From Oscillospiraceae bacterium (GTDB lineage Bacteria > Bacillota > Clostridia > Monoglobales > WRAG01), in assembly GCA_009780345.1 (NCBI GenBank), contig WRAG01000011.1:1-58305 (forward strand): 58,305 nucleotides of DNA, given 5' to 3'. The notes beneath the pieces were generated by a model, which was given only the letters and a program-made list of their open reading frames with translations, ran no database searches and was not told the origin of the DNA. Position numbers and translations under genes: made by a program. This document shows positions 6,052 to 21,566 of the stretch, piece after piece (the first letter of the stretch is position 1; the number at the start of each line of letters is the position of its first letter).

Positions 6052-6053
6052 TT

Positions 6054-6415: not shown

Positions 6416-6655
6416 TTACTCTAAATCAAGCCTTACTTCTTCAAGTTTGGCAAGCAAATTTTCCAAACTTTTATTATCCATATTAATATATTTTGATTTT
6501 TTAATAAGTACACTTATTAGACTCTCTACAAACTCTACATTGTCTAACTCCTGTATAACTCTATCCTTTGACTTAATTATCCTTTTGGGATTGCCGAGCA
6601 ATCTATACTTCACGCAGAAATTGATTATTTCTTCTGCTAATTCTATTTTTTCCAT
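6416..6655 (-). CDS. Hypothetical helical protein (paralogue A)
   Basis: The 79-aa protein has no recognised domain. It is predicted all-helical (ELAEEIINFCVKYRLLGN ... VEFVESLISVLIK ... LENLLAKLEEVRLDL). It shows the same spacing of conserved positions as the neighbouring 94-aa protein: E(I/L)..EII...KY at the start, (F/I)(V/I)E.L in the middle and LE..L..LE..R at the end. The pair probably arose by duplication. Codon use is AT-rich like the rest of element 1. Function unknown. Confidence 0.6.
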   Translation of the reverse strand: MEKIELAEEIINFCVKYRLLGNPKRIIKSKDRVIQELDNVEFVESLISVLIKKSKYINMDNKSLENLLAKLEEVRLDLE

Positions 6656-6676
6656 AATACCCCTGTTTCTATTTTC

Positions 6677-6961
6677 CTACTGGCTTACCAGTTGGCTTTT
6701 TTCTTCTAAAAATTGATCTAAAAATAACATTGTTTTTCTATTTTCTAATTCTATTAAAAACGTTTCCAATCTTTTTCTATCCCTTAGAAATCTTTTTAAA
6801 CGTATTTCTTGGTGTAATCTTCTTAAAAGATTTTCTATAAAGATAATGCTTTCTATTCTGCTTGTTACCTCTTTTGCTATCAAAACTTCATTGTCCATTT
6901 CGATTATATTGAAATATTTGTAATAGTAAATAATTTCGTTTACTAATTCGTATGTGTTCAT
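6677..6961 (-). CDS. Hypothetical helical protein (paralogue B)
   Basis: The 94-aa predicted helical protein begins MNTYELVNEIIYYYKYFNII and has IIFIENLLRRL in the middle and LETFLIELENRKTMLFL near the end. It aligns with the 79-aa product of the next gene, 21 nt downstream, so the two form a duplicated pair in one transcript. It lies between the regulator at 7004-7486 and the integrase module. No function can be assigned. Confidence 0.6.
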   Translation of the reverse strand: MNTYELVNEIIYYYKYFNIIEMDNEVLIAKEVTSRIESIIFIENLLRRLHQEIRLKRFLRDRKRLETFLIELENRKTMLFLDQFLEEKSQLVSQ

Positions 6962-7003
6962 AAAACATAACCTCTTTCTATTTTTTTGCTTACAAAAAAG
7001 ATG

Positions 7004-7486
7004 TTAGGCTAATACTTTGATCCTAACATCTTTCTTCAAACATTGATTATCTAATCCAAGCGAGGATAAAAATTTAATGCAAGCACTTTTTCTAACTTGC
7101 CTAACCTTTTTATGTCCCCAGTTGATAACCTTTGCAATATCATATTCATTTTTATTTTCATAAAACGCATAATGAAATACATCTAATTCCAATTCGTTCA
7201 ATTTCTTTAAAGATACTGTTATCTTGGAAAATAATCTTTTTCTATAATAATCATTTTTTATTTTAGATATTTCTTTTATCAAAATAAAATCTTCTATCGC
7301 TGAATTGCTAATAGGCATAATTTGTTCGTAACGAACTTGATAACCTCTTGTAATCCTTGGGATATTTATTTTTTCGTTTGTGCTTTCTAAATACTGAAAC
7401 AACTTAAAAATATCTAATATGATATTCCGCAGACCTACATAACTGTATAAGTCTAACAACTTTTTGTTTAAAACTTCATTTTTCAC
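7004..7486 (-). CDS. Sigma-region-4/ArpU-like transcriptional regulator
   Basis: The 160-aa protein has a C-terminal helix-turn-helix of the sigma-70 region 4 / phage ArpU type: LELDVFHYAFYENKNEYDIAKVINWGHKKVRQVRKSACIKFL. Here the segment 'YDIAKVINWGHKKVRQVRKS' fits turn and recognition helix. The N-terminal half is helical with no recognised domain. Such proteins control late or transfer genes in phages and integrative elements. It probably regulates the downstream small genes or the whole module. The regulated targets are unknown. Confidence 0.65.
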   Translation of the reverse strand: MKNEVLNKKLLDLYSYVGLRNIILDIFKLFQYLESTNEKINIPRITRGYQVRYEQIMPISNSAIEDFILIKEISKIKNDYYRKRLFSKITVSLKKLNELELDVFHYAFYENKNEYDIAKVINWGHKKVRQVRKSACIKFLSSLGLDNQCLKKDVRIKVLA

Positions 7487-7953
7487 TCCCTCTTTACCTC
7501 TTTTACCTCTCTTTCTATTTCAACCAAAAAGAGCAGTAAATTACACGCAAAAATGTAATGTACTACTCTTTTAAAATACAAAATAATTTATATCATTGGT
7601 TACTGCTTGGATACAATTATTCCGTATCATACAATATTTTATCACACTAAAAGGCATAGTCAATGACCTAAAAAAGGGCATACTTCAAGGCGCAAAAAAG
7701 GGCAGTCAAAACTTGATTTGCCCTTGTAATTACTGGATTTGAAGTCATAGGCATTTGATATAGCATTTGCCTATTGACAAGGGTAGGCATTTTTTAAATA
7801 AAATTATTTCGTCTCACTTCTCGACAAAAAAGGAACTCGCCGTTTAAAAAGCGAATTCCATTTTGTCTAAAAATCAACCTCATTGTATATATTGCATTTG
7901 GAGTTTATAATACAAGGGTAAATTTTGTTATTCTCTTGAAAGTTTGCGTTATT
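7487..7953. other. Intergenic region with three hairpins
   Basis: No ORF is seen. 7525-7573 is a long imperfect inverted repeat (AAAGAGCAGTAAATTACA against TGTAATGTACTACTCTTT). 7699-7726 is AAGGGCAGTCAA / TTGATTTGCCCTT. 7828-7865 pairs GGAACTCGC with GCGAATTCC and, on the minus strand, is followed by T6, so it is the likely terminator of the operon starting at 9018. AAAAAGGGCA occurs twice near 7671-7703. Confidence 0.6.
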
Positions 7954-8595
7954 TTAGTGCAGGGCTGCGTTAAACAAATTATAATAATCTATATTAAATA
8001 AATCATATGTAGTACCATACCATAGCAATACACCTATTAATACTATAAACATCATATTTATAATATACAAATACGAATATTTGCGAAAAGGTTTTTTAAA
8101 GTGTTCCGCACAGTCTTTTGAGATGTCTTCATTACTACAATTAATACAATGTCTTTCTGTTGTTTTAACAGCTTCTTTTCTTCTAAATTTGTTACAAGAA
8201 TTGCTTATTGGTTTACCCGATAATTTTGAAATGCAAAACATCAATAAAAAAAGAATATTGAAAACAAATATTCCCACCAATGCAGATACCCAAGAAATCG
8301 TAAATATATGAACGTATCGCAATGATTGAAATGCTGACATTAAATTAATTCCCCCAAAAACTACAACAACGACTGCAATAAAAACACCCATAGCAGATAT
8401 TGCATTAGGCAATAAGTCTTTGATTTTATTTTCTTGTTTTTCAACAACATCATTTATTTTTTGTTCTTGGTCTTGCAATATTTTTATAAGACTGTCGGAC
8501 ATCGTTTCAATCCTGCTTGATTGCTTTTCTGCCGCTGTTGCGATTTCGCCTATTTTATTCATTAAAGATTCAAGCGTTGGTGTATTATTTGACAT
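7954..8595 (-). CDS. Membrane protein of unknown function with N-terminal coiled coil
   Basis: The 213-aa protein has a coiled-coil-like N-terminus (residues 1-45, IGEIATAAEKQSSRIETMSDS ... ). TM segments lie near 47-70 (MGVFIAVVVVVFGGINL), 84-110 (WVSALVGIFVFNILFLLMF) and 178-197 (MMFIVLIGVLLWY). A cytosolic loop carries a Cys cluster, HCINCSNEDISKDC, that could bind zinc. It lies 3 nt after the 139-aa gene and ends at a terminator, so the two form a closed two-gene operon. Function unknown; a defence, exclusion or signalling role is only a guess. Confidence 0.65.
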   Translation of the reverse strand: MSNNTPTLESLMNKIGEIATAAEKQSSRIETMSDSLIKILQDQEQKINDVVEKQENKIKDLLPNAISAMGVFIAVVVVVFGGINLMSAFQSLRYVHIFTISWVSALVGIFVFNILFLLMFCISKLSGKPISNSCNKFRRKEAVKTTERHCINCSNEDISKDCAEHFKKPFRKYSYLYIINMMFIVLIGVLLWYGTTYDLFNIDYYNLFNAALH

Positions 8596-8598
8596 ATA

Positions 8599-9018
8599 TT
8601 ATCCCCTTGCTGTTTTTATGTTTTTTTTAATATACATTTCTAATTTTTCTGATGCTGTTTCTAATTTCTTGTTACTGCTTGACAATTTTGATATACTTCC
8701 ATCAGCAATGCGAATAAGTTCGTAAAAATCTGTTTCAGCAGGCTTTTCAGCAGGCATCAAACTTTCTATTAATTCTCTTAGCAATTCTTTTTTTAGCATA
8801 TCAACGTCTCTGTCTGCTGCTGATTTTCCGTCCATATCAATATCTCCTTTTTTATCTTTTATTTGATAATCAATCAAATAGTATTCTTTAAGTATTTTTA
8901 TTAAAATTAAAAAACGTTCATCTGTTATAATGTATTTTTCGACAAATGTTTCTGAATATCCTTTTTTTATAAAATATTCTTTTAATATTTCCGCAATTGC
9001 AATATCTAAACCATCCAT
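8599..9018 (-). CDS. Hypothetical helical protein, partner of the 213-aa membrane protein
   Basis: The 139-aa predicted helical protein has an N-terminal half with EILKEYFIKKGYSETFVEKYI. A central acidic linker (KGDIDMDGKSAADRDVDM) precedes a C-terminal helix with heptad-like spacing, SKLSSSNKKLETASEKLEMYI. The AGAGGGA ribosome site lies 6 nt before the ATG. It is the first gene of a two-gene operon, with a palindrome upstream (9068-9091). No family recognised. Confidence 0.6.
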   Translation of the reverse strand: MDGLDIAIAEILKEYFIKKGYSETFVEKYIITDERFLILIKILKEYYLIDYQIKDKKGDIDMDGKSAADRDVDMLKKELLRELIESLMPAEKPAETDFYELIRIADGSISKLSSSNKKLETASEKLEMYIKKNIKTARG

Positions 9019-9067
9019 AAAATCCCTCTAATTCTTCTTGAATTTAATATTACAATACCATTATTTC

Positions 9068-9091
9068 CATGATTTGTAAAATCAAATCATG
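9068..9091. promoter_or_regulatory. Palindromic operator-like site
   Basis: The 9-bp inverted repeat CATGATTTG/CAAATCATG has a 6-bp spacer. It sits where a minus-strand promoter for the 9018 operon would lie (TTTACA, 17 bp, TATTGT overlaps it). It is a candidate binding site for the XRE protein encoded next to it. Confidence 0.45.
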
Positions 9092-9105
9092 ATATTTTTG
9101 GAAAA

Positions 9106-9143
9106 CAAAAAAAGATAATGATTAAAAAATAACCATTATCTTC
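9106..9143 (-). terminator. Terminator of the resolvase-XRE operon
   Basis: On the minus strand, AAGATAATGGTTA pairs with TAATCATTATCTT, followed by T-rich sequence, about 45 bp after the XRE stop codon. Confidence 0.6.
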
Positions 9144-9184
9144 TTCGTTAGCCTACTTGTGGTAACTCTGCCTATTTACTAATA

Positions 9185-9406
9185 TCATTTTTTATTACAA
9201 ATTATTCCAACATCATCATAAAATACATCGTCAGGATTTAACTCGAAAATACTAGATATTTTAACCGCCATATAATAACATAACTTCCGCTTTCCATTTT
9301 CTAATTGCCAATAATAAATCCGGCTAACGTTTAACAACTTCCCCATATCAGCACAACTATAATTTCTTTCTGACCTCAATCGTTTTAATTTGTATAACTT
9401 GTTCAT
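9185..9406 (-). CDS. XRE-family helix-turn-helix regulator
   Basis: The 73-aa Cro/C1-type DNA-binding protein carries the HTH in residues 7-60: LKRLRSERNYSCADMGKLLNVSRIYYWQLENGKRK, with MAVKISSIFELNPDDVF as the following helix. It overlaps the end of the upstream resolvase gene by 4 nt (ATGA), so the two are co-translated. It probably represses recombinase or neighbouring operon expression. The palindrome at 9068-9091 is a possible target. Confidence 0.85.
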   Translation of the reverse strand: MNKLYKLKRLRSERNYSCADMGKLLNVSRIYYWQLENGKRKLCYYMAVKISSIFELNPDDVFYDDVGIICNKK

Positions 9407-10026
9407 ATTACTTCCTTTTCTTGTATTTCACTAACCGCACTACATAGGTTGTAAAAAGCGGATTTTTTTCTGCCCGATAATTTTAGTGCAGTATTCAAAG
9501 AAATTTGTCCGCTTTGATATTGATTTACAATATTTATTTCTTCCTCGGTGATTACCGACTTCGCTCGCCCGAACTGTTTTCCGTTTGCTTGTGCGACAGC
9601 GATCCCCTGCGCTTGTCGTTTTTTTCTGATTTGCCATTCATAGTCAGCTTGAAAAGATAAAATATGTAGCATGATATTTCGAATAAATCGCCCAAATAAG
9701 CTATTGTCCGCTTGGTCTGTATCAATTAGCGGAGTGTCTAAAACTTTTATTATAACGCCGATTTGCCTTGTCAGTTTATACCATTCGTCAAGAATTCCGT
9801 CATAATCTCGGCTAAGTCTGTCAATGTTTTCAATGTACAGAATATCGTTCATTTTAAGTTGCTTTGTAAAGCAATGATAAGCTTTTCGCTCTGGGCTTTT
9901 ACCGCTTTCTTTCTCAATAAGGATATTTTCCATTGGTACGCCCAACTCTTTCATTCTTATTATTTGTCTTTCGGTGTTTTGATCTTTTGTAGAAACTCGG
10001 ATTAAGGCATATTTTTGTCCTATCAT
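9403..10026 (-). CDS. Small serine recombinase (resolvase/invertase family)
   Basis: The 207-aa protein has a catalytic N-terminal domain (residues 5-145): YALIRVSTKDQNTERQ contains the nucleophilic serine, and NIDRLSRDYDGILDEW the conserved Arg motif. The long E helix (SFQADYEWQIRKKRQAQGI) and a short C-terminal HTH (INTVNQYQ ... LNTALKLSGRKKSAFYNL) follow. The size is that of a resolvase/DNA invertase, not of a large integrase. Overlap with the XRE gene suggests autoregulation. The perfect palindrome 10072-10107 directly upstream of its promoter region is a candidate recombination or operator site. Confidence 0.92.
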   Translation of the reverse strand: MIGQKYALIRVSTKDQNTERQIIRMKELGVPMENILIEKESGKSPERKAYHCFTKQLKMNDILYIENIDRLSRDYDGILDEWYKLTRQIGVIIKVLDTPLIDTDQADNSLFGRFIRNIMLHILSFQADYEWQIRKKRQAQGIAVAQANGKQFGRAKSVITEEEINIVNQYQSGQISLNTALKLSGRKKSAFYNLCSAVSEIQEKEVI

Positions 10027-10337
10027 TGTTGTACCGCCCCTTTACTTTTTACACAAAGCATAACAAAACACAGCAGTCCACGAAAGGTAGACCTTTCGTG
10101 GACTGCTCGTTAATAATAACATTCGTATGTTTTCGTGTCAACACTTGACACAAAAATACGGAATTATTGTCTATTTTGACAAAAAACATACATCGAATTT
10201 GTGCAATATTGCTAAAAATGCAATTCCATTTAAAGTCTACTTTTGGCGGAAACGTACAAGTCAACTTCATATCGTGCATATGAGGTTTTTTCGTGGAAAA
10301 AATAATGAACTAAAAATTATAGAAAAGAGGCTTTAAA
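10027..10337. promoter_or_regulatory. Divergent control region with two palindromes
   Basis: The gap lies between the divergently transcribed resolvase and stalk-protein genes. 10072-10107 is a perfect 17-bp inverted repeat (AGCAGTCCACGAAAGGT, AG, then its complement) without a T-tract. 10135-10151 is GTGTCAA-CAC-TTGACAC. 10162-10180 holds TTGTC-N6-GACAA. These look like protein-binding or recombination sites. I do not see a clear SigA promoter for the + strand gene. Confidence 0.5.
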
Positions 10338-11066
10338 ATGACAAAGTTACAAAAAGGAAAGTATTTTATCTTGGGAGTTATTGCGACAATCATTGTCAGC
10401 ACATTCGTTATACCTGCGGTGGCTCGGCTTGTTCAAGAAACGATTACTGTACATACAGGAATCAACGTTTATGTTGACGGCAGACGGCTTAATATGAGGG
10501 ACGCACAAGGAAATCGCGTTGAAGCGGGCATTTTTGAGGGTACTACGTATTTGCCTGTTCGTGCAATTGCCGAGGCATTTGGCACACCTATTTATTGGGA
10601 TGGTCCGACTTGGACTGTTTTTCTTGGCAGTATGGACGGAAGATTGCAACACCCAACAACAAGATTAGACCAAGTGAGAAACATCGCCCCAGCAGGAACT
10701 TTTGGCACCTTTTACTTGCAACCTGTTCGAGGGACTATTCGAGACAATTATGGAAACTCGTATAACAATGTTTTTAGACGTGGCACCGCCGACCTTGCTT
10801 TTAGAGGATTGTTAAATATGCGGTATTCTCGTTTTAGAGGAACTATTTTTATACCACAAGGCACAACTCGTACTAACGCAAGAATGATAGTAGAGGTTGA
10901 TGGAAGAATTGTTTATACTTCACCTACAATGACAGAAAGTTCAAGACCGATAGATTTTGATATCAATATTACCGGTGGGAATGATTTTAGAATTAGACTT
11001 GAAGGCGATGGCGATGTGATGGGTGCGGGAAGATTACATCTTGCAGAACCCAGATTTTATCAATAA
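10338..11066 (+). CDS. Secreted stalk-domain protein (element cargo)
   Basis: The 242-aa protein has an N-terminal signal/anchor helix (residues 8-30, YFILGVIATIIVSTFVIPAVA). A copper amine oxidase N-domain-like half (INVYVDGRRLNMRDAQGN ... TYLPVRAIAEAFGTPIYWD) occupies about residues 38-95. A C-terminal beta-rich domain (about 115-242) with an FRIRLEGDGDVMGAGRLHL ending resembles carbohydrate-binding-like folds. There is no catalytic motif. The lipoprotein gene follows, with a 17-nt gap to its preferred start. The organism has another stalk protein at 857-1327, so this may be acquired cargo that acts at the cell surface. Confidence 0.75.
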   Translation: MTKLQKGKYFILGVIATIIVSTFVIPAVARLVQETITVHTGINVYVDGRRLNMRDAQGNRVEAGIFEGTTYLPVRAIAEAFGTPIYWDGPTWTVFLGSMDGRLQHPTTRLDQVRNIAPAGTFGTFYLQPVRGTIRDNYGNSYNNVFRRGTADLAFRGLLNMRYSRFRGTIFIPQGTTRTNARMIVEVDGRIVYTSPTMTESSRPIDFDINITGGNDFRIRLEGDGDVMGAGRLHLAEPRFYQ

Positions 11067-11083
11067 ACCGAAAGGTGATGAAT

Positions 11084-12046
11084 ATGACTATTAAAAATTT
11101 ACAAAAAATTTGTCTTCTGCTTTCCTTATCAATGTTGATTATATTTTTAATTGGGTGTGGCTCAAACAACCCGCCACGAGAGCGAGATATGATTAACGAC
11201 TTAAATAGTCGTTACGCATTCAAATACAGATTGGTTGACGGCGATTTTCAATATTTTTCTATTGATAGCTTAACTATTGATAGACGGCAGACAGAAAATA
11301 GAACAGATAGAATTTATGCCACAATAACTAAAAGTAATAACAATTTCAGTATAATAGGCGAATATATGTTATTGTACGAATATTATGATGTTGGCGGTTG
11401 GATATTGAATAATCATAGGGCAATATCATTTGAAATAGTAACTCCTTTGACACTTATTCCCCAAGAGCAAGCCGACTTATTAATTGCAGAAGAAAATCAA
11501 GAATTTGAACTAATAAGAGAATATATTGATTTAGAATACGGCATTATTATTTATACATATAGCACGCGTAATGTATATAACTTTATGACACTAGAAAGAG
11601 TACAGGCTGTTGTTTTCACTTTTGATTCTATTGGGTGGAAATGGGAAAGTGAAATTCGACTTCGTGAACATAGAGAATACTGGAATATAACAGGCAGATG
11701 GATATTTAATGATAGAGTTCGCTCTCCCACTCTTGGGGGAGTTCAACAATATGTTGAAAGAAATTTTGAATTAGTTATTAACAATTTTAATTGGAGTGTA
11801 AATCCTGCTTATTTTGAGGGACATTATAATTATAGAAGCATACTTTCTACTAATTATCATAATCCTTGGGACGAAAGAAACTCAACAAATAGTGGCAATA
11901 TCCGTTTAATTTATGGTACATTGCGTGGGATAGGTGGCGACTATGTTTTGCCTCGTGATACAGGCATGAGATTTGTTGTTGATAGAAATTACGGCATAAT
12001 TCTTTCAAGCCGGTCAGCAAGACTTATCGCTGAACGTGTTGAGTAA
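11084..12046 (+). CDS. Putative lipoprotein of unknown function
   Basis: The 320-aa protein begins MTIKNLQKICLLLSLSML, with lipobox LIGCGSN (Cys at about residue 25), so it is probably lipid-anchored outside the membrane. The mature part is rich in beta strands and Asn/Tyr/Arg. No domain is recognised. I prefer the ATG at 11084, because AAAGG is 8 nt upstream of it and only 2 nt from the ATG at 11078; a GTG at 11075 is also in frame. Probably co-transcribed with the stalk gene upstream. Confidence 0.7.
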   Translation: MTIKNLQKICLLLSLSMLIIFLIGCGSNNPPRERDMINDLNSRYAFKYRLVDGDFQYFSIDSLTIDRRQTENRTDRIYATITKSNNNFSIIGEYMLLYEYYDVGGWILNNHRAISFEIVTPLTLIPQEQADLLIAEENQEFELIREYIDLEYGIIIYTYSTRNVYNFMTLERVQAVVFTFDSIGWKWESEIRLREHREYWNITGRWIFNDRVRSPTLGGVQQYVERNFELVINNFNWSVNPAYFEGHYNYRSILSTNYHNPWDERNSTNSGNIRLIYGTLRGIGGDYVLPRDTGMRFVVDRNYGIILSSRSARLIAERVE

Positions 12047-12158
12047 AAATATCCAAACGACCAAAACGGCAAGAATTAGATCGGTTCTATGAAATAGAAT
12101 AATTTAATATAAATACTAAATAAAATTAAATTATATCTATTTTTAGGAGTGTTGCCAA

Positions 12159-12299
12159 ATGGCAAATCAATTTTTTCAATGTGTAAATGTTTATTGCGGA
12201 TTTAAAAGATATCAAGACGGAAAATTAGCCCCCTCACATATTACAGTATCGCAAACTCCTTGCCCGAAATGTGGCGCGAAAATGATTAGAAAACCATAA
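12159..12299 (+). CDS. Small zinc-ribbon peptide (46 aa)
   Basis: The short ORF MANQFFQCVNVYCGFKRYQD... ends with CPKCGAKMIRKP. Two cysteine pairs (C8/C13 and C35/C38) suggest a zinc ribbon. A TTAGGAG site lies 8 nt upstream and a strong terminator lies just downstream (12302-12340). Small rubredoxin-like or zinc-finger peptides like this occur in phages and mobile elements. Function unknown. Confidence 0.65.
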   Translation: MANQFFQCVNVYCGFKRYQDGKLAPSHITVSQTPCPKCGAKMIRKP

Positions 12300-12301
12300 A
12301 T

Positions 12302-12340
12302 AATGGCAAGCATTGAAATAATGCTTGCCATTTTTCTTTT
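12302..12340. terminator. Rho-independent terminator between convergent units
   Basis: AATGGCAAGCATT/AATGCTTGCCATT, with loop GAAAT, followed by TTTCTTTT. It terminates the + strand cargo operon. Confidence 0.9.
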
Positions 12341-13175
12341 ATATTAGCTTATTCGCCTTTTCCAACCGTTCAATCCTGCGTGTCAATGGCGGGTGCGTAC
12401 TGCGGAGTTGCTCAATCACGCTTTCCGGCGAACTCGTTGAAAATTGGTGGATTTGAGATAATACATCAGCCAACTCGTCCCCAAATCCGCACTTGTGAGC
12501 GAAATTGTCCGCCATGTATTCGTGTTCACGGCTGACCGACATTAAAATCAAATCCCCGATAAACATAATAAATCGGTAAATCCCCTCGATTATGTAATAA
12601 AGCACTTTGAAAACAAGGGTATATATTGAATCTTTACCCCTAACTATGAAAAGTAAAATATTTGCGATTCCTCGAATAAATTTCAAAATCAACGACATAA
12701 AAACATTGCCGACATAAGCGATTAAAGATACCATAGTATCAAAATGTGAAAAATGCCCGAACTCGTGAGCAATCAAGCCTTTTAGGCTCTCGTCACTCAA
12801 TAACTCGATACTACCTTTTGTGAGTGCGAGAGTACCACGCCCAAAGGCAAAAGCGTTTATTTCCATATTTTCTTGAATGTACAATGTGATATTTCGTGAT
12901 AATCTCGGATCGTTTTCGATTGCCTGCCTGTAAACATCTTCAAATAAGGGCATTAGGCGGTTTCTCTCGCTTTCCGTCCGTATCGGTCTAACCTTTGACA
13001 CACCTCGCCATAGACTTTCAGCCATTGGCGAAAGGGCGAATAAAATTGACGAAATATAAATAATTGATACCCACATAAACGCTTGCCCTGTACCGCCTAA
13101 AATCAGCCAAAAAATTGTGAAGTAAAAAGCAAACCAAAAAATATAAGGCCAATTGCTGAATATTTCCCTACGCAT
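12339..13175 (-). CDS. M48-family zinc metalloprotease (HtpX-like)
   Basis: The 278-aa membrane-bound peptidase has N-terminal TM segments (about residues 12-50). The zinc-binding motif HEFGH lies near residue 138 (LIAHEFGHFSHFD), and the third ligand Glu is in SREHEYMADNFA (about 212-223). A hydrophobic stretch between them (about 150-205) fits the HtpX layout. It is a membrane-protein quality-control type protease, here as element cargo. It follows the VirD4-like gene by 21 nt. Its link to conjugation or to the stalk/lipoprotein cargo is not known. Confidence 0.88.
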   Translation of the reverse strand: MRREIFSNWPYIFWFAFYFTIFWLILGGTGQAFMWVSIIYISSILFALSPMAESLWRGVSKVRPIRTESERNRLMPLFEDVYRQAIENDPRLSRNITLYIQENMEINAFAFGRGTLALTKGSIELLSDESLKGLIAHEFGHFSHFDTMVSLIAYVGNVFMSLILKFIRGIANILLFIVRGKDSIYTLVFKVLYYIIEGIYRFIMFIGDLILMSVSREHEYMADNFAHKCGFGDELADVLSQIHQFSTSSPESVIEQLRSTHPPLTRRIERLEKANKLI

Positions 13176-13196
13176 ACAAACTCCCCCTAAAATTTT

Positions 13197-14570
13197 TTAA
13201 AAAGGCTTGTTTATATGTATTTTAGTGTGGAACATTTTATCCCTTGAAACGAAAATTGCCTTGCCTTGTTCCAAATGCTTTATAATTTGCGGGTGATAGA
13301 TATATTCATGAACTTTACGGAGCGAGCCTAAGCCTGTGCTTTCGCCACTATCAACTTGATATGTGGGGTGCATTGTTTCCCTTGTGCCGATTACGTTCGC
13401 CCAATACTCGGAATTTACAGGGCTATTTTGGCGGAGTACGATATAATTGTTGCAATTCTCTATAATTTGCTCTTTGAGTTGGTCGGTTACACCGTCTAAG
13501 TCTGATAAACTCTGCGTTGCAAGTACGCAAGTCACATTTGCCGAACGTGATTTATTTACCAAATCAAGCAACGATGTATTTGCGTAAACATTTATCTCGT
13601 CCAATATGTAAAATATGCGTTTCTTCTTATTGGCATATAAATTACTGACTGCCTTTTTGCTGTCAATCACAATCAAATTGCCAATCAACGGCGATGTTTC
13701 GGGATATAAAAGCGGATTCAATATAAACAAGATAACTGCGTTTTCTTGTAACGCTGTGTAAATATCTATCCCCGAAACGTCGAAAATTTGTCCGAGTTTA
13801 CTCTCTTTTATGGTCGCAAATCGAGCCGCCGCTCCCTCGATGATTTCCTTGTTTGCTCGGGCAAGATTAGTATTTTCGATATGCTGTTCTTTGGTGATTA
13901 GCTTTTCATCGGATAGTTTTTCACTTAAAACAACGAAATCTTCGGCGGGCATATATTTAATCAAACTTTCAAATGATATTTCGATGTCCGATAGTTCAAG
14001 CAGACAGCACAATCGCTGAATGTAACGCTCTGTATTAAATTTATAGTGCGGCTCGCTCCACTCGGTCATATTGATTAGCATATCCTTTATGACATCGGGG
14101 TTTGTGTTTTTGAATGGGTTGTATTTGTCGCTGTTTTCGGGATCGTTGAGATTGATAACGTAAATTTTTCTATCTTTGCATATGTCCTTTGTGATTTCCA
14201 ATAGCGAGCCCTCGCCTGTATCACCTTTTCCGTCTACGACTAACATAGGATAGTCGTTTTTAACTCCGCTTTTTAGGAAGTTGGCGAGTGCAACAGTCTT
14301 TCCGCTCCCTGTTGTACCGCAAACAAAAACGTGTTTAGCCTCATTGGGGATAAACACGCCTTTTTTGTTTGAGGTGTGGCCGATATATGTAGCTTCCCCT
14401 TGGGGATCTGCGGAGTATGTCGGTCTATTGACGGCATTTTTGTAATCTTTATCAAAATTGTAGACTTCGCTTTGATTTGATTTTATAGTTTGAATAAATT
14501 TCAGCAATCCAACAAAGATAGCTGAAATTATCAAGATTGTAATTATACTGACTATTTCACTTGCTGACAT
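13197..14570 (-). CDS. VirD4/TraG-like coupling ATPase
   Basis: The 457-aa protein has an N-terminal TM helix (residues 5-27, IVSIITILIISAIFVGLLKF). The RecA-like ATPase domain has Walker A GTTGSGKTVA (near residue 87) and Walker B-like FYILDEINVYA (near 320), then VLATQSLSDLDGV. This is the layout of type IV coupling proteins that feed DNA-protein complexes into a conjugation channel. No other conjugation genes are present, so element 1 would need a helper. The Replic_Relax gene overlaps it by 14 nt upstream, so the two are a functional pair. Confidence 0.85.
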   Translation of the reverse strand: MSASEIVSIITILIISAIFVGLLKFIQTIKSNQSEVYNFDKDYKNAVNRPTYSADPQGEATYIGHTSNKKGVFIPNEAKHVFVCGTTGSGKTVALANFLKSGVKNDYPMLVVDGKGDTGEGSLLEITKDICKDRKIYVINLNDPENSDKYNPFKNTNPDVIKDMLINMTEWSEPHYKFNTERYIQRLCCLLELSDIEISFESLIKYMPAEDFVVLSEKLSDEKLITKEQHIENTNLARANKEIIEGAAARFATIKESKLGQIFDVSGIDIYTALQENAVILFILNPLLYPETSPLIGNLIVIDSKKAVSNLYANKKKRIFYILDEINVYANTSLLDLVNKSRSANVTCVLATQSLSDLDGVTDQLKEQIIENCNNYIVLRQNSPVNSEYWANVIGTRETMHPTYQVDSGESTGLGSLRKVHEYIYHPQIIKHLEQGKAIFVSRDKMFHTKIHINKPF

Positions 14571-15198
14571 AATTTGATACCTCCTCTAAGCGCATGATTT
14601 CAATATTGGAATATGCGTTTTGTAAAACTTGTAACATTCTTCTAACTTTGGGATTGTTGGTAATCCAAGTTTGGCTATCATAGTTTAGATAATTTGTTTT
14701 TACATTATTTTCAAATGTGTTTTTGTTTTTCGGGTGCAATTCAACTTCAACCGCTTTTTGTGTTTCACCTTGATTGATAACAAAATCGGGATAACGCTTA
14801 CGAAGTCCAAAACCGTTTAATGAGTTTAGCTCTTTTTCGGTCACAATATCGTCTAAACTGATATTATATTTATTCAAAAAATAAATTGCCGTATCTAAAA
14901 CATGAATATCGTGTGTAATACTATCAAGGCGGATTGTTTCCGCTCTTTTATTAACTCCGATTAATTTTCTGCCTTTATGGCTCAGCGTGTACAAATACGG
15001 AACTCCGAAGATGTATTTTTTACGCTCTAAAAATCCTGCTTCAACTAAGATTTTTAATCTTCTGTCGGTCGCTCCTAAACTGCTATAATCTGCAAACGCT
15101 TTAATGTGCCGACCTAAACAAAATCTAAATCTATAAACTACATTTAAGATTTTATAATCTCTTTTTTCTAATCTCATATTTTTATTTATAAAAATCAC
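14557..15198 (-). CDS. Replication-relaxation (Replic_Relax)-like protein
   Basis: The 213-aa protein has an N-terminal winged-helix half with RRLKILVEAGFLERKKYIFGVPYLYTLSHKGRKLIGV, typical of the Replic_Relax family seen next to coupling proteins on Gram-positive mobile elements. The C-terminal half has RYPDFVIN...AVEVELHPKNK, a D...ExE pattern like a restriction-endonuclease-fold core. The family is thought to bind an origin. It lies beside the candidate origin hairpin at 15411-15473. Whether it nicks DNA is unknown. Confidence 0.7.
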   Translation of the reverse strand: MIFINKNMRLEKRDYKILNVVYRFRFCLGRHIKAFADYSSLGATDRRLKILVEAGFLERKKYIFGVPYLYTLSHKGRKLIGVNKRAETIRLDSITHDIHVLDTAIYFLNKYNISLDDIVTEKELNSLNGFGLRKRYPDFVINQGETQKAVEVELHPKNKNTFENNVKTNYLNYDSQTWITNNPKVRRMLQVLQNAYSNIEIMRLEEVSNYVSK

Positions 15199-15742
15199 CT
15201 CTTTATTTTAAATATTATTGGGAAGGCTCCCCTGTCTTAAAAGAGTTAAGAAAGGGGAACCTGTACGGGCGGGCGGGACGAAAGGGGAAAGATTTGATTA
15301 CTACCTAACCTCTCACTACTATACTAACTACTACCTAACACCACACCTATATCCAAACACATACCACCAAAACCCCACCCCACCCACAAAGAAATATTAC
15401 CAACGTAGTAATACAGGGGTCTCGGGTGTTTTCACAACCTTTTTTTATCAAAAAACAGCCGAGACCCCTGTATTGCGGAGTGGGGAATCGCCCTAAATAT
15501 GGGGTTTTGGTGGTGTGTATCGTAAAATTATTATATGTATATGCCATGCAGGGTCGTGAAATTACAGGATTATTACAGCGGGAAATATTCGTTTAAGCCA
15601 TTTTTGTATAAGAAAAAGACACTTGCAATTTTTTGCAGATGTCTTTTTTAATTCACGAACGGAGCTTGTCCGTTAAATGCCTATAAAAATTTTTATTTCA
15701 GTATTAACGTAGTAATTGTTCAACTTTAAATATATTTTCTAT
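15199..15742. other. Candidate origin (oriT/replication) region
   Basis: No credible gene is seen. 15300-15400 is low-complexity CTACC/ACCCC-rich sequence. 15411-15425 and 15459-15473 are perfect 15-bp inverted repeats (ATACAGGGGTCTCGG) with a 33-nt A/T-rich loop. TATTAC-N7-GTAATA lies just before it (15395-15413). ACGTAGTAAT recurs near 15403 and 15703. 15613-15650 is an intrinsic terminator-like hairpin with T6. The site lies just upstream of the Replic_Relax gene, where an origin of transfer is expected. Confidence 0.45.
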
Positions 15743-15928
15743 TTATGATTCATATTTTTTAAAAACATCGAATAGTCTTTTTTCTATATATTTTCTATTT
15801 ATAAATTTGTCTTCAGGGTAATAATTTATAACCCTGAAATTCATTTTATCTTTACTGATTGTATCTATATGCTTTTGCTCATTATTCTTATAACCTTTTT
15901 TTAGATATGTTTCGTTTTTATCATTCAT
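15743..15928 (-). CDS. Small basic protein near the right end of element 1 (61 aa)
   Basis: The ORF begins MNDKNETYLKKGYKNNEQ and ends YIEKRLFDVFKKYES. It is very Lys/Asn-rich and basic. A good AGGAG site sits about 9 nt before the ATG. It is close to the element 1 right junction, so it may belong to the recombination machinery; size (about 60 aa) is like known recombination directionality factors. No domain is recognised. Confidence 0.5.
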   Translation of the reverse strand: MNDKNETYLKKGYKNNEQKHIDTISKDKMNFRVINYYPEDKFINRKYIEKRLFDVFKKYES

Positions 15929-16185
15929 AGAATCACGCTCCTACTATCTTAATAAAACGATTTTAACATTTTAATTTCAATTTGTCGACGAAAATTAAAA
16001 TTATATTTAAGTCTTTTTATTTCAATCTCTTTTATTTAATAATTAAATATTTTTTCAGCGATTAGTTATTAAGCATTTTAGTAAAATTTTGGTATAACGC
16101 TATAAATTCAGTTCCCCCTGTTGCACCATATAGAGCCGTGTTTTCCTTACAGCCATAAGGGGTGCGCTATAAATTCAGTTCGGGG
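15929..16185. repeat. AT-rich right-end region of element 1 with 17-bp direct repeats
   Basis: No gene is seen. CGCTATAAATTCAGTTC occurs at 16098-16114 and again at 16165-16181, 67 bp apart in the same orientation. The second copy touches the crossover. Such repeats next to an att site could be accessory recombinase-binding sites. Confidence 0.7.
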
Positions 16186-16200
16186 GACGGCGAGCTCGGC
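16165..16200. other. attR of element 1
   Basis: The element ends with CGCTATAAATTCAGTTCGGGG and crossover GA (16186-16187). cotJC resumes with CGGCGAGCTCGGC at 16188. Joined to 2632, it restores P32-D33-G34-E35 in frame. Confidence 0.75.
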
Positions 16201-16274
16201 GCATCTTTGCGATATTTATCGCAGCGATTCTCAATGCCTGATGGTATTACAAAGGGATTGCTGACCGATATAGG
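16188..16274 (+). CDS. cotJC: cotJC segment 2 of 3 (codons 33-62), flanked by both elements
   Basis: The 87-nt stretch reads (D)GELGASLRYLSQRFSMPD, then GITKGLLTDIG, which is exactly the missing middle of CotJC between the two other segments. It includes metal ligand E35. It has no start codon of its own and ends at the second junction, where TEVSK-stop follows if element 2 is not removed. Its presence shows that two separate insertions hit the same gene 85 bp apart, instead of one long element. Confidence 0.92.
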
Positions 16275-16294
16275 AACCGAAGTATCGAAATGAC
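16267..16294. other. attL of element 2
   Basis: cotJC GATATAGG meets the element at 16273-16274 (GG). The element half-site contains GTATCGAAATGAC (16282-16294). Its inverted partner GTCATTTTAATAC is at 21136-21148 (11 of 13 positions match). Confidence 0.75.
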
Positions 16295-16650
16295 GATTCT
16301 GGCTTTCAAGTAAGATACATAAATGTGAATGCCTTATTTTAACAATAGGAAGAAGCGGACAAATCTATGGAAAAGGAAAAAGAGTTTACGATGCGAGAGT
16401 TATTATGAATATATAAATAAAAAACACCAACACATTTGCCAATTTTAATGTAAAAATTCGAAAGAATATATTGATTTTCCGAGGAATAAGTGATAAAATG
16501 TGTTACTAAGTGAATGTTTGGGTTTAGAAAAATTACAAAGGAATTTCGGACTTGAAAATAGGATTAAATCTATTCCGTTGTGCGGCATTGTGTGTGATAT
16601 AAACAGACATAAAAATATAAAGTTATTTCATTTTAATTTGGAGGTGCTTT
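16283..16650. other. Leader region of the methyltransferase gene in element 2
   Basis: No convincing gene is seen. Short readable stretches occur (about 16338-16394, and from about 16495 overlapping the next start) but neither has a ribosome site. They might be decayed coding remnants. A good ribosome site (GGAGGTG) precedes the gene at 16651. Confidence 0.4.
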
Positions 16651-18342
16651 ATGAAAAAGGAACTTCAAAAAACATCTGATATAGACAAAAATATTATGCA
16701 ATATTTTAGACGCTATGCATCTAGGGATTCCGGTAACGGAGATGTTTATACTCCGAAAGAAATAGTGCAACTTATGGTTAAGCTTTGCCAACCGTCCGCC
16801 GGAACAATTTATGACCCTTGTTGCGGAAGCGGGGCTTTGTTAATAGGCGCTGCTGATTATGTAAGTGAAATTAAAGACATTAATTTATATGGTCAATGTG
16901 AAAATAGGGATACATACTGTCTGTGCAAAATCAATTTGTTTTTAAGAAATTTAGAAGCTAATTTGGAAATTCAAGATGATAAAGACGTTTTAAAAGATTT
17001 GCAACCAGGCTTAAAAGCAGATTACATTTTACTTAATCCGCCATTTAATCAAAATAATTGGGGAAAAAAGTATTTAAGAAATGATCAACGATGGCGTTAC
17101 GGAATACCTCCTGAAAAAAACGCTAATTTCGCTTGGTTGCAACACGCGATTTCCCATATGACTGATAATGGAAAAATTGTTACAATTATGCCTAATGGAG
17201 CCATGTTTAGCAAAATGGGGAATGAAAAAATCCGTGCGGCAATTATTGAGGATGACCTGATTGAATGTGTTATAACATTGCCAGGGAATCTTTTTTTCAA
17301 TACCAAGGTTCCTTGCTCAATTTGGATATTGAGTCGCAAAAAAGCACGAAAAGGCAATATTCTTTTTATTGACGCCAGAGATACGGGTTCTCTGTCCGCT
17401 TGGAAAAGAGTTCTGGGAGAAGATGATGTTTATGCAATTATTTCAGCTTACACAAATTTTAAAAACGAAGATATAATTGATATAGATATTCCTTACGCGA
17501 TCGCGACTATGGAAGATGTTGCTAATCAAGGGTACGATTTGTCTCCGGTAAGATATATAAAATATGAGTATAAAAAGTACAACGAGGCCGAACATAAAAA
17601 GAGTTTGGAACAGCTCAAAGAGAACGTGGATCGACTAATCGGTGAAAAAATCCTATCAGACAACAGATCAAAAAAATTATTGGATGATATAAATTTAAAA
17701 GCAAAATGGAGTAAACGAAATTTAACGGATTTATATGAAGTTTTTGGAGGGGTGGCTAAAAAAGGCAAGGAAAATTATGGGCATGGTTCTCCTTTTTTGA
17801 ATTTAAAAACAATTATCAATAATTTTTTTGTACCATATGAACTTGACGAATTGGTAAATTCAGACAAATACGAAAAATATACTCATTCTATAAAATCCGG
17901 AGATGTTTTTTTATCGCGCACAAGCGAGGACGCAGGTCAATTAGCCTTAAGTTGTGTTGCTTTAAAAGATTACTCCGAAGCAACATTTAACGCGTTTTCT
18001 AAAAGATTGCGACCGATAGATGATATGATAGATTCAAAATATGCTGCCGCGTATTTTCGTTCAGATTTTATTAGGCAAACTATAAAAAATATGGTATATG
18101 CTACTACTCGCGCTACACTTAATAATGATATGTTGTCTCGTATGCCTATTATATTTCCACCCAAAGATGAACAAATAAAAATTGGAGAGCTTATTTATCA
18201 GATCTCGCTAACAATAGAAAATGATAAAAATTTATCGAAAGAGGATATCAATAAGATTAAGAAAATTCAACAAGCAGTATTGGATTGCTTTATTTCTGAG
18301 CCGATTTATTCTTTTTTGCAAAGAGGAGAGTTAAACTTATGA
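16651..18342 (+). CDS. N-6 DNA methyltransferase fused to specificity (HsdS-like) domain
   Basis: The 563-aa adenine methyltransferase of a restriction-modification system has motif I YDPCCGSGALL (near residue 55) and motif IV LLNPPFNQN (near 130). The fold is HsdM-like (N6_Mtase). From about residue 340 to the end it has a target-recognition half, with a helix rich in KK and ending IINNFFVPYELDEL ... NNDMLSRMPIIFPPKDEQIKI, a classic HsdS end (I.PP..EQ..I). So methylation and recognition are in one chain. It overlaps the HNH nuclease gene by 4 nt (ATGA). GGAGGTG lies 6 nt before the start. Confidence 0.88.
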   Translation: MKKELQKTSDIDKNIMQYFRRYASRDSGNGDVYTPKEIVQLMVKLCQPSAGTIYDPCCGSGALLIGAADYVSEIKDINLYGQCENRDTYCLCKINLFLRNLEANLEIQDDKDVLKDLQPGLKADYILLNPPFNQNNWGKKYLRNDQRWRYGIPPEKNANFAWLQHAISHMTDNGKIVTIMPNGAMFSKMGNEKIRAAIIEDDLIECVITLPGNLFFNTKVPCSIWILSRKKARKGNILFIDARDTGSLSAWKRVLGEDDVYAIISAYTNFKNEDIIDIDIPYAIATMEDVANQGYDLSPVRYIKYEYKKYNEAEHKKSLEQLKENVDRLIGEKILSDNRSKKLLDDINLKAKWSKRNLTDLYEVFGGVAKKGKENYGHGSPFLNLKTIINNFFVPYELDELVNSDKYEKYTHSIKSGDVFLSRTSEDAGQLALSCVALKDYSEATFNAFSKRLRPIDDMIDSKYAAAYFRSDFIRQTIKNMVYATTRATLNNDMLSRMPIIFPPKDEQIKIGELIYQISLTIENDKNLSKEDINKIKKIQQAVLDCFISEPIYSFLQRGELNL

Positions 18343-19205
18343 GAAAAATAAATATAGGAGAACAATATCAGCTTGTTTTACTGCAATCAATCATGGAGTT
18401 GGGTGGTTCTTGCGCAAAATCTGAAGCATTAGAAAATATTCAAAATAATGCGTACTGGAAAATGAATGATGAAAATGACAGTTTTCGAAATTCAAGAAAA
18501 TCTGAACAGATATGGCGTAATGAATTTGCGCAAGCAAGAAGACGTCTTAAAGACCTGAAATACATAAGAGGAGAAACTCGCGATGTATGGGATATAACAC
18601 CGCAGGCAAGCGGATACCATAAGGAATTATCACAACGCATGGTGATAGAAATGTACGGCACTCGTTTTATCTTTACCGAAAAATTCTATAATAAAATAAG
18701 TTTTGAATTTGCAGAAAATATTGAAAGTGAAGAAGATGAACAATTAATACAAAATACATTTTTTGAACATTTTAATTTGGACAAAAAAGAAATAAAGTTA
18801 AAAGATATCCCAAAACCTAAAGGAAATGCCGCAAAAATAATAGGCTCTCGAAAAATTTATACAAGAAACCCTGTAATTTCACAAAGAGCGCTTGCGCTTG
18901 CCGATCATTTATGTGAAGTGGATGCTACCCATACTTCGTTTATTCGACGTAATGCTGATGTTTTATATATGGAACCGCATCATTTTATTCCTATGAAGGA
19001 AACTGAACGCTTTGAAGTAAGTTTGGATAGAGAACGAAACATAATATGCTTATGTAGTAATTGCCATAATCTTTTGCATTACGGGAACAAAGAGAGCGTT
19101 AAAAAAATGTTAACTTTTTTATTTAAAAAAAGAAAACTTGCTCTTACTAAAATACTTGGCAGACAATTATCTCTTGAGGAATTATTCAAAATATATCAAG
19201 TTTAA
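18339..19205 (+). CDS. Restriction endonuclease, winged-helix (Mrr_N-like) plus HNH domain
   Basis: The 288-aa protein has an N-terminal winged helix (about residues 5-95, VLLQSIMELGGSCAKSEALE ... WDITPQASGYHKEL), as seen in Mrr-type nucleases. A C-terminal HNH nuclease (about 195-250) carries MEPHHFIPMKET, then ICLCSNCHNLLHYG. The His-Asn-His ligands and CxxC zinc motif are present. It is probably the cutting partner of the upstream methyltransferase, making a compact two-gene R-M system with HNH chemistry. It ends near a strong terminator. Confidence 0.85.
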   Translation: MRKINIGEQYQLVLLQSIMELGGSCAKSEALENIQNNAYWKMNDENDSFRNSRKSEQIWRNEFAQARRRLKDLKYIRGETRDVWDITPQASGYHKELSQRMVIEMYGTRFIFTEKFYNKISFEFAENIESEEDEQLIQNTFFEHFNLDKKEIKLKDIPKPKGNAAKIIGSRKIYTRNPVISQRALALADHLCEVDATHTSFIRRNADVLYMEPHHFIPMKETERFEVSLDRERNIICLCSNCHNLLHYGNKESVKKMLTFLFKKRKLALTKILGRQLSLEELFKIYQV

Positions 19206-19251
19206 TTTTGGCAGTTAACATTTCATATCGGACAAGCTGAGTATCATAAAC

Positions 19252-19287
19252 TAATACCAGACAAAAATTTGTCCGGTATTTTTTTAT
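19252..19287 (+). terminator. Rho-independent terminator after the R-M operon
   Basis: ATACC-A-GACAAA pairs with TTTGTC-C-GGTAT and is followed by T7. It separates the R-M genes from the recombinase unit. Confidence 0.85.
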
Positions 19288-19318
19288 ATTCAAAATCAAA
19301 TTGAAATGAGGTTGCCCA

Positions 19319-19513
19319 ATGGCGGCAAGATGTTTTAAACTTATAGAAATCACTAAAGCTGAAAGTCAAATTGACGATAATATAATTAAAAACTTTACAA
19401 CAAATTTTCAAGAAGCGTTACTACTGTCGCTATTGGAGAAGAGTCTCCTGAATCAATGGCAGTTTGAGCAATGCATGGAAGAAATAAAGATAAAAGGGAC
19501 TTACAAGCGATGA
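19319..19513 (+). CDS. SHOCT-like small protein next to the recombinase
   Basis: The 64-aa protein ends with the pattern LLSLLEKSLLNQWQFEQCMEEI, a SHOCT-like helical pair (two short helices) often seen in small proteins near clostridial recombinases. The ribosome site is GAGG about 9 nt upstream. The large recombinase follows 32 nt later. It could be a regulator or directionality factor for element 2; evidence is positional. Confidence 0.65.
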   Translation: MAARCFKLIEITKAESQIDDNIIKNFTTNFQEALLLSLLEKSLLNQWQFEQCMEEIKIKGTYKR

Positions 19514-19545
19514 TATAAATAGGCTATAATGTTGAAAATGAGGCG

Positions 19546-21156
19546 ATGCGGTTGTATAATGTAAATTCAGTCGATAAAATCCAAAAGGTGGCGGCTTATT
19601 GTCGTGTGTCAACGGACAAGGACGACCAGGTGAACTCTTTGGAAAGTCAAAAGAAATTTTTTCGAGACTACATAGAGCACAACGCATTTTGGGAACTTAC
19701 CGAAGTGTATGTGGACGAAGGAATAACCGGAACTTCCACTAAAAAACGTCATGCTTTTAATCGAATGATGATTGATGCTGAAAACAGGCAATTTGATTTA
19801 ATTATAACGAAAGAAATCAGTCGTTTTGCCCGGAACACGTTGGATAGTATTTTCTATACCCGAAAATTAAAAAACATTGGTATCGGCGTTATTTTTATGA
19901 ACGATAATATCAATACTTTGGATGCTGATGCCGAACTTCGACTGACTATTATGTCGTCGATTGCGCAAGAGGAAAGCCGCAAGACTTCCGACCGTGTGAA
20001 GTGGGGGCAAAAGCGGAGAATGGAACAAGGCGTAGTATTCGGCAGAGATATGTTGGGGTATAATGTACGAGGCGGCAAGTTGTATATCAACGATGATGGC
20101 GCGAAAATTGTGCGGCTTATTTTTCATAAATTTGTCAACGAAGGGAAAGGCACTTATGTCATTGCCCGTGAATTACAGGAAGCAGGACTTCGAACCTCTA
20201 CATATATGAAAACTTGGTCTAATACGGTTATTTTAAGAGTTTTGCGAAACGAAAAATATTGTGGTGACCTGGTGCAGAAAAAGACTTATACTCCAAGCTA
20301 TCTGACTCACGAGAAACGATACAATCGCGGCGAAGAAGAATTAGTTGTACTTCGAGACCATCACGAGCCTATTATAGGCCGAGAATTGTTTGACAAAGCA
20401 CAGTTGGAACTTGCGCGACGTTCGCCGTCAGACGAACAGAAGGCCAAACACTCCAACCGATATTGTTTTTCGGGAAAAATCAAATGCGGGATTTGCAGTT
20501 TTTCGTATGTATCGCGCACAAAAAATCGAAAAAACAAAAGCATATATAAAGCGTGGAGGTGTTATGAAGGTACGCGGCACGGCGCACCGCATATTGATAA
20601 AGCGGGAAATCAAGTTGGATGTTCAGGAATGTCAATTAACGATGATGATACTAAAACTATCTGTCGAGAAGTTGTGAAAAATCTTCAGATTGAACGTGAA
20701 AATATTGTAAATAATCTTGCCGGAATTATTAAAAAGGTTATGGATTCAGAAAATGGCGAAAATAAAATCGAGAATTCACAGTCAAAACTCGCCCAAATAT
20801 CCGATAAAAAACGGCGACTTCTTGAGTTGTATATGAATAAGGATATTAGTAAGCAGGATTTTCAGGAGATGAATGCGAAGTATGATGCGGAATCGATAGT
20901 CTTGGCTGAAAAAATTAGCGTTCATCAAAATCAACAGAAGCTCTCGCAAAGTCAAAATGTTTTATTGGCAGAAATAAATTTAACGTTAAAAGATCTTGTT
21001 TATGGCGATGAATGGAACGATACTTTCTATCGTCATATTTTAGATAAAATAGTGGTTTATAAGAAGAATCAAATTGAGGTGCAACTCAATTTTTCATCCA
21101 CAAAATGGCGGTTTGCAAGACTCCAAGTAGCTGGTGTCATTTTAATACCTCAATAG
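19546..21156 (+). CDS. Large serine recombinase (element 2 integrase/excisionase)
   Basis: The 536-aa protein has a catalytic domain (about residues 10-160) that starts VAAYCRVSTDKDDQVNS with the nucleophile serine. The Arg motif is ITKEISRFARNTLD. The recombinase domain includes LGYNVRGGKLYIND. A zinc ribbon (KCGICSFSY ... WRCYEGTRH ... GCSG) and a C-terminal coiled coil follow. The stop codon TAG is formed by the element end plus the crossover GG (21154-21156), so the gene runs right up to the junction. It is a different lineage from the element 1 recombinase by eye, consistent with separate insertions. Confidence 0.95.
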   Translation: MRLYNVNSVDKIQKVAAYCRVSTDKDDQVNSLESQKKFFRDYIEHNAFWELTEVYVDEGITGTSTKKRHAFNRMMIDAENRQFDLIITKEISRFARNTLDSIFYTRKLKNIGIGVIFMNDNINTLDADAELRLTIMSSIAQEESRKTSDRVKWGQKRRMEQGVVFGRDMLGYNVRGGKLYINDDGAKIVRLIFHKFVNEGKGTYVIARELQEAGLRTSTYMKTWSNTVILRVLRNEKYCGDLVQKKTYTPSYLTHEKRYNRGEEELVVLRDHHEPIIGRELFDKAQLELARRSPSDEQKAKHSNRYCFSGKIKCGICSFSYVSRTKNRKNKSIYKAWRCYEGTRHGAPHIDKAGNQVGCSGMSINDDDTKTICREVVKNLQIERENIVNNLAGIIKKVMDSENGENKIENSQSKLAQISDKKRRLLELYMNKDISKQDFQEMNAKYDAESIVLAEKISVHQNQQKLSQSQNVLLAEINLTLKDLVYGDEWNDTFYRHILDKIVVYKKNQIEVQLNFSSTKWRFARLQVAGVILIPQ

Positions 21157-21168
21157 GCACCGAAGAAC
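21136..21168. other. attR of element 2
   Basis: The element-side arm GTCATTTTAATAC (21136-21148), then CTCAATA, crossover GG (21156-21157), and host cotJC CACCGAAGAACTT. It completes the 42-bp symmetric attP with the attL half at 16275-16294. Confidence 0.75.
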
Positions 21169-21566
21169 TTGGGCATTTAGAAATGGTCGGAACTTTGGTC
21201 ACGCAGCTAACCCGAAACCTTTCGGCGTCAGAAATCGAAAAAAGCCCCATGGGCGCATACTACATTGACCACGGATTGGGAGTGTTCCCGACTTCGGCAA
21301 GCGGAATGCCGTGGACGGCTGCAAGCATGGCAGTAAAAGGCGACCCAATCGCCGATTTAGTTGAAGACTTGGCAGCAGAGCAAAAAGCGCGCGCAACTTA
21401 TGACAATATTTTACGCGTATGCGATGACCCCGATGTAAGCGACGTAATCAAATTCCTGCGCCAACGAGAAATTGTGCATTTCCAGCGCTTTGGTGAAGCG
21501 TTGGATATGGTTCAGAATAAGCGAGATGAGAAGAAATCGTATGTTAACGGAATGAAAAACAACTAA
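21158..21566 (+). CDS. cotJC: cotJC segment 3 of 3 (end of codon 62 to codon 197)
   Basis: It encodes the C-terminal two thirds of the manganese-catalase-like coat protein: TEELGHLEMVGTLV ... AAEQKARATYD ... RQREIVHFQRF. Metal ligands E65, H68, E136 and H169 are at family spacing. There is no ribosome site at 21105, where an ATG frame opens inside the recombinase gene, so the segment is silent unless both elements are removed. It ends before a strong terminator at 21573-21600. Segments 1+2+3 give a 594-nt (198-codon) gene without stops. Confidence 0.92.

Follow-up and report, generated by a model that had tools for sequence, protein, structure and literature searches.

A serine-recombinase element at codon 62 of cotJC in an Oscillospiraceae bacterium has the anatomy of a sporulation-gene intervening element

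Sporulation genes can be interrupted by DNA elements that carry their own recombinase, and the closest of these are compared here. The skin element of C. difficile interrupts sigK and encodes the integrase CD1231, a large serine recombinase (LSR) driven by sigma-A, together with CD1234, a 72-aa recombination directionality factor (RDF) under sigma-E and SpoIIID (PMC5025042). The gin element in gerE of B. cereus is a 28.6 kb non-phage element of the serine-recombinase type, with three recombinases, a reported overlap of 9 bp, restriction-modification cargo and an extra factor, GirX (PMC5595907). SPbeta, a full prophage in the spore-envelope gene spsM, is excised during development with an LSR and an RDF (SprA/SprB; PMC4191935), and yin, which is prophage-like and reported as unique to one strain, places a recombinase and a putative small RDF inside the spore gene yabG of C. 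botulinum (PMC10747680). In C. difficile R20291, phi027 lies beside a cotJC-like catalase gene, and cotJC homologues look partly redundant in that species (PMC11222575). Here we analyse Element 2, which splits the coat gene cotJC at codon 62 in a 58,305-nucleotide stretch of DNA from an Oscillospiraceae bacterium (contig WRAG01000011.1 of assembly GCA_009780345.1; the whole stretch analysed is referred to as the window).

Like skin, Element 2 combines an LSR with a separate small protein, here a candidate RDF whose gene stands behind a motif similar to the sigma-E and SpoIIID arrangement of the skin RDF, and its removal precisely restores a mother-cell gene, here in silico. Unlike skin, it targets cotJC rather than sigK, has counterparts in many genera, is small, belongs with elements that carry restriction or toxin-antitoxin cargo, and shares its gene with a second element. 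It resembles gin in being a non-phage intervening element with a serine recombinase, restriction-modification cargo and an additional factor, but it measures 4.9 kb, has a single recombinase and uses a 2-bp crossover. With SPbeta it shares a spore-envelope target, an LSR, a candidate RDF and a presumed developmental excision, whereas no phage structural genes were found in Element 2. With yin it shares a recombinase and a putative small RDF inside a spore gene, whereas the cotJC family is widespread; with phi027 it shares the association with a cotJC homologue. A literature search, which was not exhaustive, found no published report of cotJC-interrupting elements. We consider it probable that Element 2 is, like skin and gin, an intervening element of a sporulation gene and that it is excised in the mother cell; it fits this class by anatomy, and we infer excision and its timing. 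It departs from the known cases in that one integrase family occupies one coat-gene codon in many genera, in that the elements are small and are not prophages, and in that two of them sit in one gene.

The right end of Element 2 (21136-21157) reads GTCATTTTAATACCTCAATAGG and the left end (16275-16294) reads AACCGAAGTATCGAAATGAC. Joined, they give the 42-bp attP GTCATTTTAATACCTCAATA-GG-AACCGAAGTATCGAAATGAC that a first-pass annotation of the window had proposed, with its coordinates and letters correct and GG at 16273-16274 and 21156-21157. Our recount agreed with the inverted outer 13 bp described there: 11 of 13 positions match at -20 to -8, with 14 of 20 over the full arm and 14 of 24 overall. 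Symmetry of 11/13 at that spacing occurs at none of the 2,396 GG positions in the window and in 2 of 200,000 random pairings of arms anchored on GG. The attP arms of 13 two-ended relatives match at 6 to 11 of 13 positions at -20 to -8 and at 13 to 19 of 24 overall, and most of these relatives have quasi-palindromic arms. The stop codon of the recombinase (TAG, 21154-21156) does use the crossover base, as had been noted, its last base being the first G of GG.

The same annotation had held that the ends fix the probable crossover dinucleotide. The window goes less far than this, because its two ends are identical over ATAGG and the crossover could lie anywhere within that block. The GG itself is upheld by 14 two-ended loci, across which the intersection of the end-shared sequence is exactly GG; in four of them (L062, L133, L134, L140) the shared block is GG alone. 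Codon 62 begins with GG at every junction, 68 of 68 on the N-side and 18 of 18 on the C-side; since any glycine codon (GGN) has to start this way, the tally is partly circular. A crossover within ACCGAAG, which the annotation had named as an example of a result that would overturn it, is rejected on this comparison, since the shared block is only GG in those four loci; the ACCGAAG likeness, which has a mismatch to its left, is read as a resemblance of attP to attB. We regard the site and the GG crossover of Element 2 as well supported by this comparative evidence.

In the Element 2 recombinase, the Resolvase and Recombinase Pfam domains exceed their cut-offs, and the zinc ribbon, at 25.2 bits, narrowly misses its cut-off of 25.3. 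The PDB matches of the protein include the SPbeta (YokA) and A118 integrase structures. By sequence, we assign the protein to the large serine recombinases with an attP/attB system, and from its family it would be expected to catalyse attP x attB recombination. The integrase domains and the quasi-palindromic arms of most relatives agree with the earlier view that the attP has the form expected for a large serine integrase. In serine integrase systems, the central dinucleotide sets the orientation of insertion. The recombinase gene has the same direction as cotJC in the window, L064, L123 and L135, where the core in the LSR frame is GG, and antisense to cotJC in most loci, where the core in that frame is CC. 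Because every junction reads GG in the cotJC sense, the LSR-frame core varies with insertion orientation, a pattern that fits the rule. L062 and L063, the nearest public relatives of the window (74-76%), have recombinase-side attP arms similar to those of the window, with the opposite core dinucleotide and the opposite orientation.

A recombinase scan of public genomes yielded 80 loci at 54-76% identity, or 81 sequences with the window, in which the halves of cotJC were searched with an intact CotJC of the same order as the query. The N-half was found in 68 of the 81 sequences, the C-half in 18 and both in 14 (window counted). In 65 of the 80 loci, the 3' end of the recombinase gene lies <200 bp from a cotJC half broken at codon 62, on the N-side in 62 and on the C-side in three (L064, L123, L135). 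None of 60 complete cotJC N-halves has an internal stop, and the gene is broken twice, as in the window, also in L073, L091, L104 and L126. Among 51 genomes of the window's order, the LSR is present in five at E<1e-110; in four of these (G003, G016, G019, G028) it adjoins a cotJC piece ending at profile position 64-65, and in the fifth, that of the window, it adjoins the cotJC C piece. Among 92 LSR pairs that are at least 95% identical in DNA, the cotJC N-halves are <85% identical in 89. Since near-identical recombinases sit in diverged cotJC N-halves, the element appears to move between species and to land on the same codon, and these comparisons place Element 2 in a horizontally moving, cotJC-specific element family. 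Such mobility also suits a plain site-specific parasite, for which cotJC would be a conserved, non-essential landing site (its metal-ligand codons) and which would excise only for transfer, outside sporulation. Recent transfer between species and tandem copies both speak for a parasite, an explanation that we regard as rather unlikely in view of the evidence that follows.

The cotJC gene of the window is split into three pieces by Element 2 together with Element 1, a second serine-recombinase element that breaks it at codon 33 (Table 1). Removal of both elements in silico gives an intact 197-aa CotJC open reading frame (ORF) without stops and with the frame restored, and no second CotJC/Mn-catalase match was found in the window's genome, which is 96% complete. 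In an alignment with 1jku, which we take to be a Lactobacillus Mn catalase, the breaks map to the regions of GE35 and EE66xxH69, presumably metal ligands, and attB covers the EExxH codons aligned to Glu66/His69. This placement of attB would favour a parasite, as would the partly redundant cotJC homologues of C. difficile, whereas the lack of a second Mn-catalase in the window's genome argues against one.

A related ORF of ~60 aa lies upstream of the recombinase gene in 73 of the 81 loci (iterative profile search), and we propose its product as a candidate RDF. The 64-aa protein of the window is modelled as two helices, for which a fold search gave no useful match (best E 0.62), and no homology of the small ORF to known RDFs was found. 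Next to the other recombinases of the same genome, no such small ORF was seen beyond one weak match (E 0.7).

A conserved motif, roughly yGTTATAtgG(T/G)ACAAnC-N7-CATAYAnT, stands upstream of the small ORF. Published C. difficile sigma-E promoters carry ATA at -35 and CATA at -10, with ATA-N16-CATATATA at spoIIID (PMC3789822), and the outer boxes of the motif match this form. At a score threshold of 9, the motif is found in 29 of 43 representatives (<88% DNA identity); the controls gave it in 3 of 860 shuffles and in none of 43 reverse complements. The count of 29 is inflated and not independent, because the representatives share ancestry. Scanning the 80 loci (2.24 Mb, both strands) with a fixed pattern gave 51 matches, 47 of them upstream of a cotJC-family LSR, two upstream of another LSR (L098, L110) and two elsewhere. 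Each of these last two (L096, L107) immediately precedes a small ORF displaced from the recombinase, so the motif belongs to the small gene. The window contains exactly two matches, one before the small ORF of each element (19225, plus strand; 4434, minus strand), and the 54-aa small ORF of Element 1 is different from, and unrelated to, that of Element 2. Twelve other regions of the same genome, 444,276 bp with the strands summed, gave no match. Viral contigs gave 65 matches. Five of these stand before an LSR at a distance of <700 bp, three of these LSRs being of the cotJC family and two not; the remaining matches are unassigned and probably chance. A generic sigma-70 scan was uninformative (20 found, 19.8 expected), and sigma-K and sigma-F/G patterns stayed at shuffle level. 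The motif also occurs upstream of recombinases of other families in L198 and L204 (IMG/VR) and at L110:2952. In the window, a terminator-like hairpin follows it directly (19253-19280), and a start inside this hairpin could free the small gene while upstream read-through stops.

By its letters, the motif resembles a mother-cell sigma-E promoter. It might instead serve as the operator of a regulator that the element encodes, or as a binding site for the integrase or the small protein; the spacer (GTACAA) is unusually conserved, beyond what a sigma factor alone would need. The match of the outer boxes to the published C. difficile form and the resemblance of the spacer to a SpoIIID box point the other way, which leaves the operator a doubtful alternative to a sigma-E-type promoter. 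A sigma-E-like motif that is conserved before the small gene, and that recurs before the small gene of Element 1, which is unrelated, also counts against a parasite that excises outside sporulation and is in keeping with excision in the mother cell.

Several results weigh against our interpretation of Element 2. Fifteen of the 80 LSR loci are not directly beside a cotJC half (L065, L093, L098, L106, L110, L111, L114, L116, L119, L120, L121, L125, L132, L133, L138). A half lies farther away in L110, L111, L116, L119, L121 and L133; L065 resembles cotJC for ~20 bp before diverging; and in L093 and L098 the recombinase is followed by a second attP-like arm, which looks like a whole attP, in place of cotJC. 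L090 and L093 lie on one contig, as expected for tandem copies. The 64-aa protein has no Pfam, NCBIfam or PDB-fold match. Besides the shared ancestry of the representatives, 14 of the 43 fall below the motif threshold, among them L064 and L065, whose LSRs are close to the one in the window. The spacer GGACAAGC is only similar to known SpoIIID boxes and does not closely fit the C. difficile consensus KRTAACARK. A generic B. subtilis sigma-E weight matrix reaches a score of at least 14 in 26% of LSR upstream regions and in 4% of shuffles, a modest excess, and with it cotJ upstream regions could not be told apart from controls.

The cargo of Element 2 consists of a methyltransferase fused to a specificity domain and an Mrr_N/HNH protein that is its probable partner nuclease. 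Among the relatives searched, AbiE toxin-antitoxin genes occur in L062, L091 and L126, and Pfam counts over 48 cargo proteins gave four AbiEii, three AAA_14 and three DUF4143. Defence and toxin-antitoxin cargo would again suit a parasite. No phage structural or replication genes were found among the annotated ORFs of Element 2 (methyltransferase, HNH protein, small ORF, recombinase). Phage and plasmid collections yielded relatives only at <60% identity, and seven IMG/VR contigs carry relatives (54-61%), five of them with a cotJC half nearby. The idea that Element 2 is a phage is unsupported, as no phage-type cargo was annotated.

Host sporulation is plausible because Spo0A, SpoIVA and an intact small acid-soluble spore protein (SASP) are present in the window's genome. 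Seven of the 14 recombinases found in it abut sporulation or spore-like genes and three abut tRNA-like sequences (by eye). That spore genes are flanked by further recombinases in this genome is another point against the parasite explanation. The host lineage might no longer sporulate, with its spore genes serving as decaying landing pads, and several spore or spore-like genes do appear broken in this genome. This we think very improbable, given that Spo0A, SpoIVA and a SASP are intact, that every cotJC piece is in frame and joins to a full ORF, and that the same arrangement recurs in many relatives of other genera. Beside the other recombinases we observed a split S11 carboxypeptidase gene (L018, C16, with L152, C9), an M23 peptidase gene in two halves (L019, C35, with L028, C7), a truncated SASP gene (L020, C8) and a cwlD-like amidase gene without a start (L021, C6).

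Table 1. Positions of Element 2, Element 1 and the cotJ genes in the window.
Feature	Position	Strand	Description
Element 2	16275..21157	.	4,883 bp with one GG counted
attL	16253..16294	+	20 bp cotJC, GG, 20 bp attP right arm (16275-16294)
Crossover dinucleotide GG at attL	16273..16274	+	first two bases of cotJC codon 62
attR	21136..21177	+	20 bp attP left arm (21136-21155), GG, 20 bp cotJC
Crossover dinucleotide GG at attR	21156..21157	+	base 21156 also ends the recombinase stop codon
LSR of Element 2	19546..21156	+	536 aa
64-aa protein	19319..19513	+	upstream of recombinase, candidate RDF
Promoter-like motif ATATCGGACAAGCTGAGTATCATAAACT	19225..19252	+	ATA-N17-CATA, sigma-E type, with SpoIIID-like GGACAAGC
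N6 DNA methyltransferase fused to specificity domain	16651..18342	+	type I-like, cargo
Mrr_N/HNH protein	18339..19205	+	cargo
cotJC piece 1	2535..2632	+	codons 1 to 33
cotJC piece 2	16188..16274	+	codon 33 to GG of codon 62
cotJC piece 3	21158..21566	+	codon 62 to stop
cotJA and cotJB	1912..2439	+	upstream of cotJC
Element 1	2633..16187	.	13.6 kb, same cotJC gene, apparent core GA of codon 33
LSR of Element 1	2660..4231	-	523 aa
Element 1 small ORF	4224..4388	-	54 aa, just upstream of recombinase, overlapping its start
Second promoter-like motif copy	4411..4434	-	upstream of Element 1 small ORF

The genes that we take to be cotJA and cotJB are so named from their position. Upstream of cotJA, AC-N17-CATATTAT at 1834-1860 is sigma-K-like and of low information. 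The LSR of Element 1 has a single relative in the window's order, 43% identical. At the right end of Element 1, a near-identical repeat, CGCTATAAATTCAGTTC, occurs at 16097-16115 and 16168-16186, ~70 bp apart, with CCCCC after one copy and GGGGG after the other; the pair is perhaps a relic of another end.

In the course of events that we propose, the integrase would recombine its quasi-palindromic attP with attB in cotJC, with strands exchanged at the GG that opens the Gly62 codon, and the element would travel between species with its restriction-modification cargo. In the mother cell, the putative directionality factor of ~60 aa would be made from the sigma-E-type, SpoIIID-like promoter suggested by the conserved motif. 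This small factor would switch the integrase to excision, and cotJC would be precisely joined before late coat synthesis, while the forespore chromosome would keep Element 2. Because the cotJC of the window holds two elements, both must leave for CotJC to be made. We can argue with about equal force for and against a wider proposal, in which cotJC contains two independent mobile 'introns'. Each would encode a small excision factor driven by one kind of sigma-E/SpoIIID-like promoter, and one protein would depend on two timed recombinations. The promoter module would then be portable between unrelated integrase families and would have allowed the cotJC-specific family to spread in gut Clostridia while its hosts kept the gene.

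The published sporulation rearrangements considered here are single cases in a few species, whereas here one integrase family is found at the same coat-gene codon in many Clostridia. Its dozens of natural attL and attR sequences provide a ready set of att sites together with a testable orientation rule. The motif may help to find similar elements in uncultured spore-formers, and the candidate directionality factor with its predicted mother-cell promoter offers a handle on how mobile DNA lives in developmental genes.

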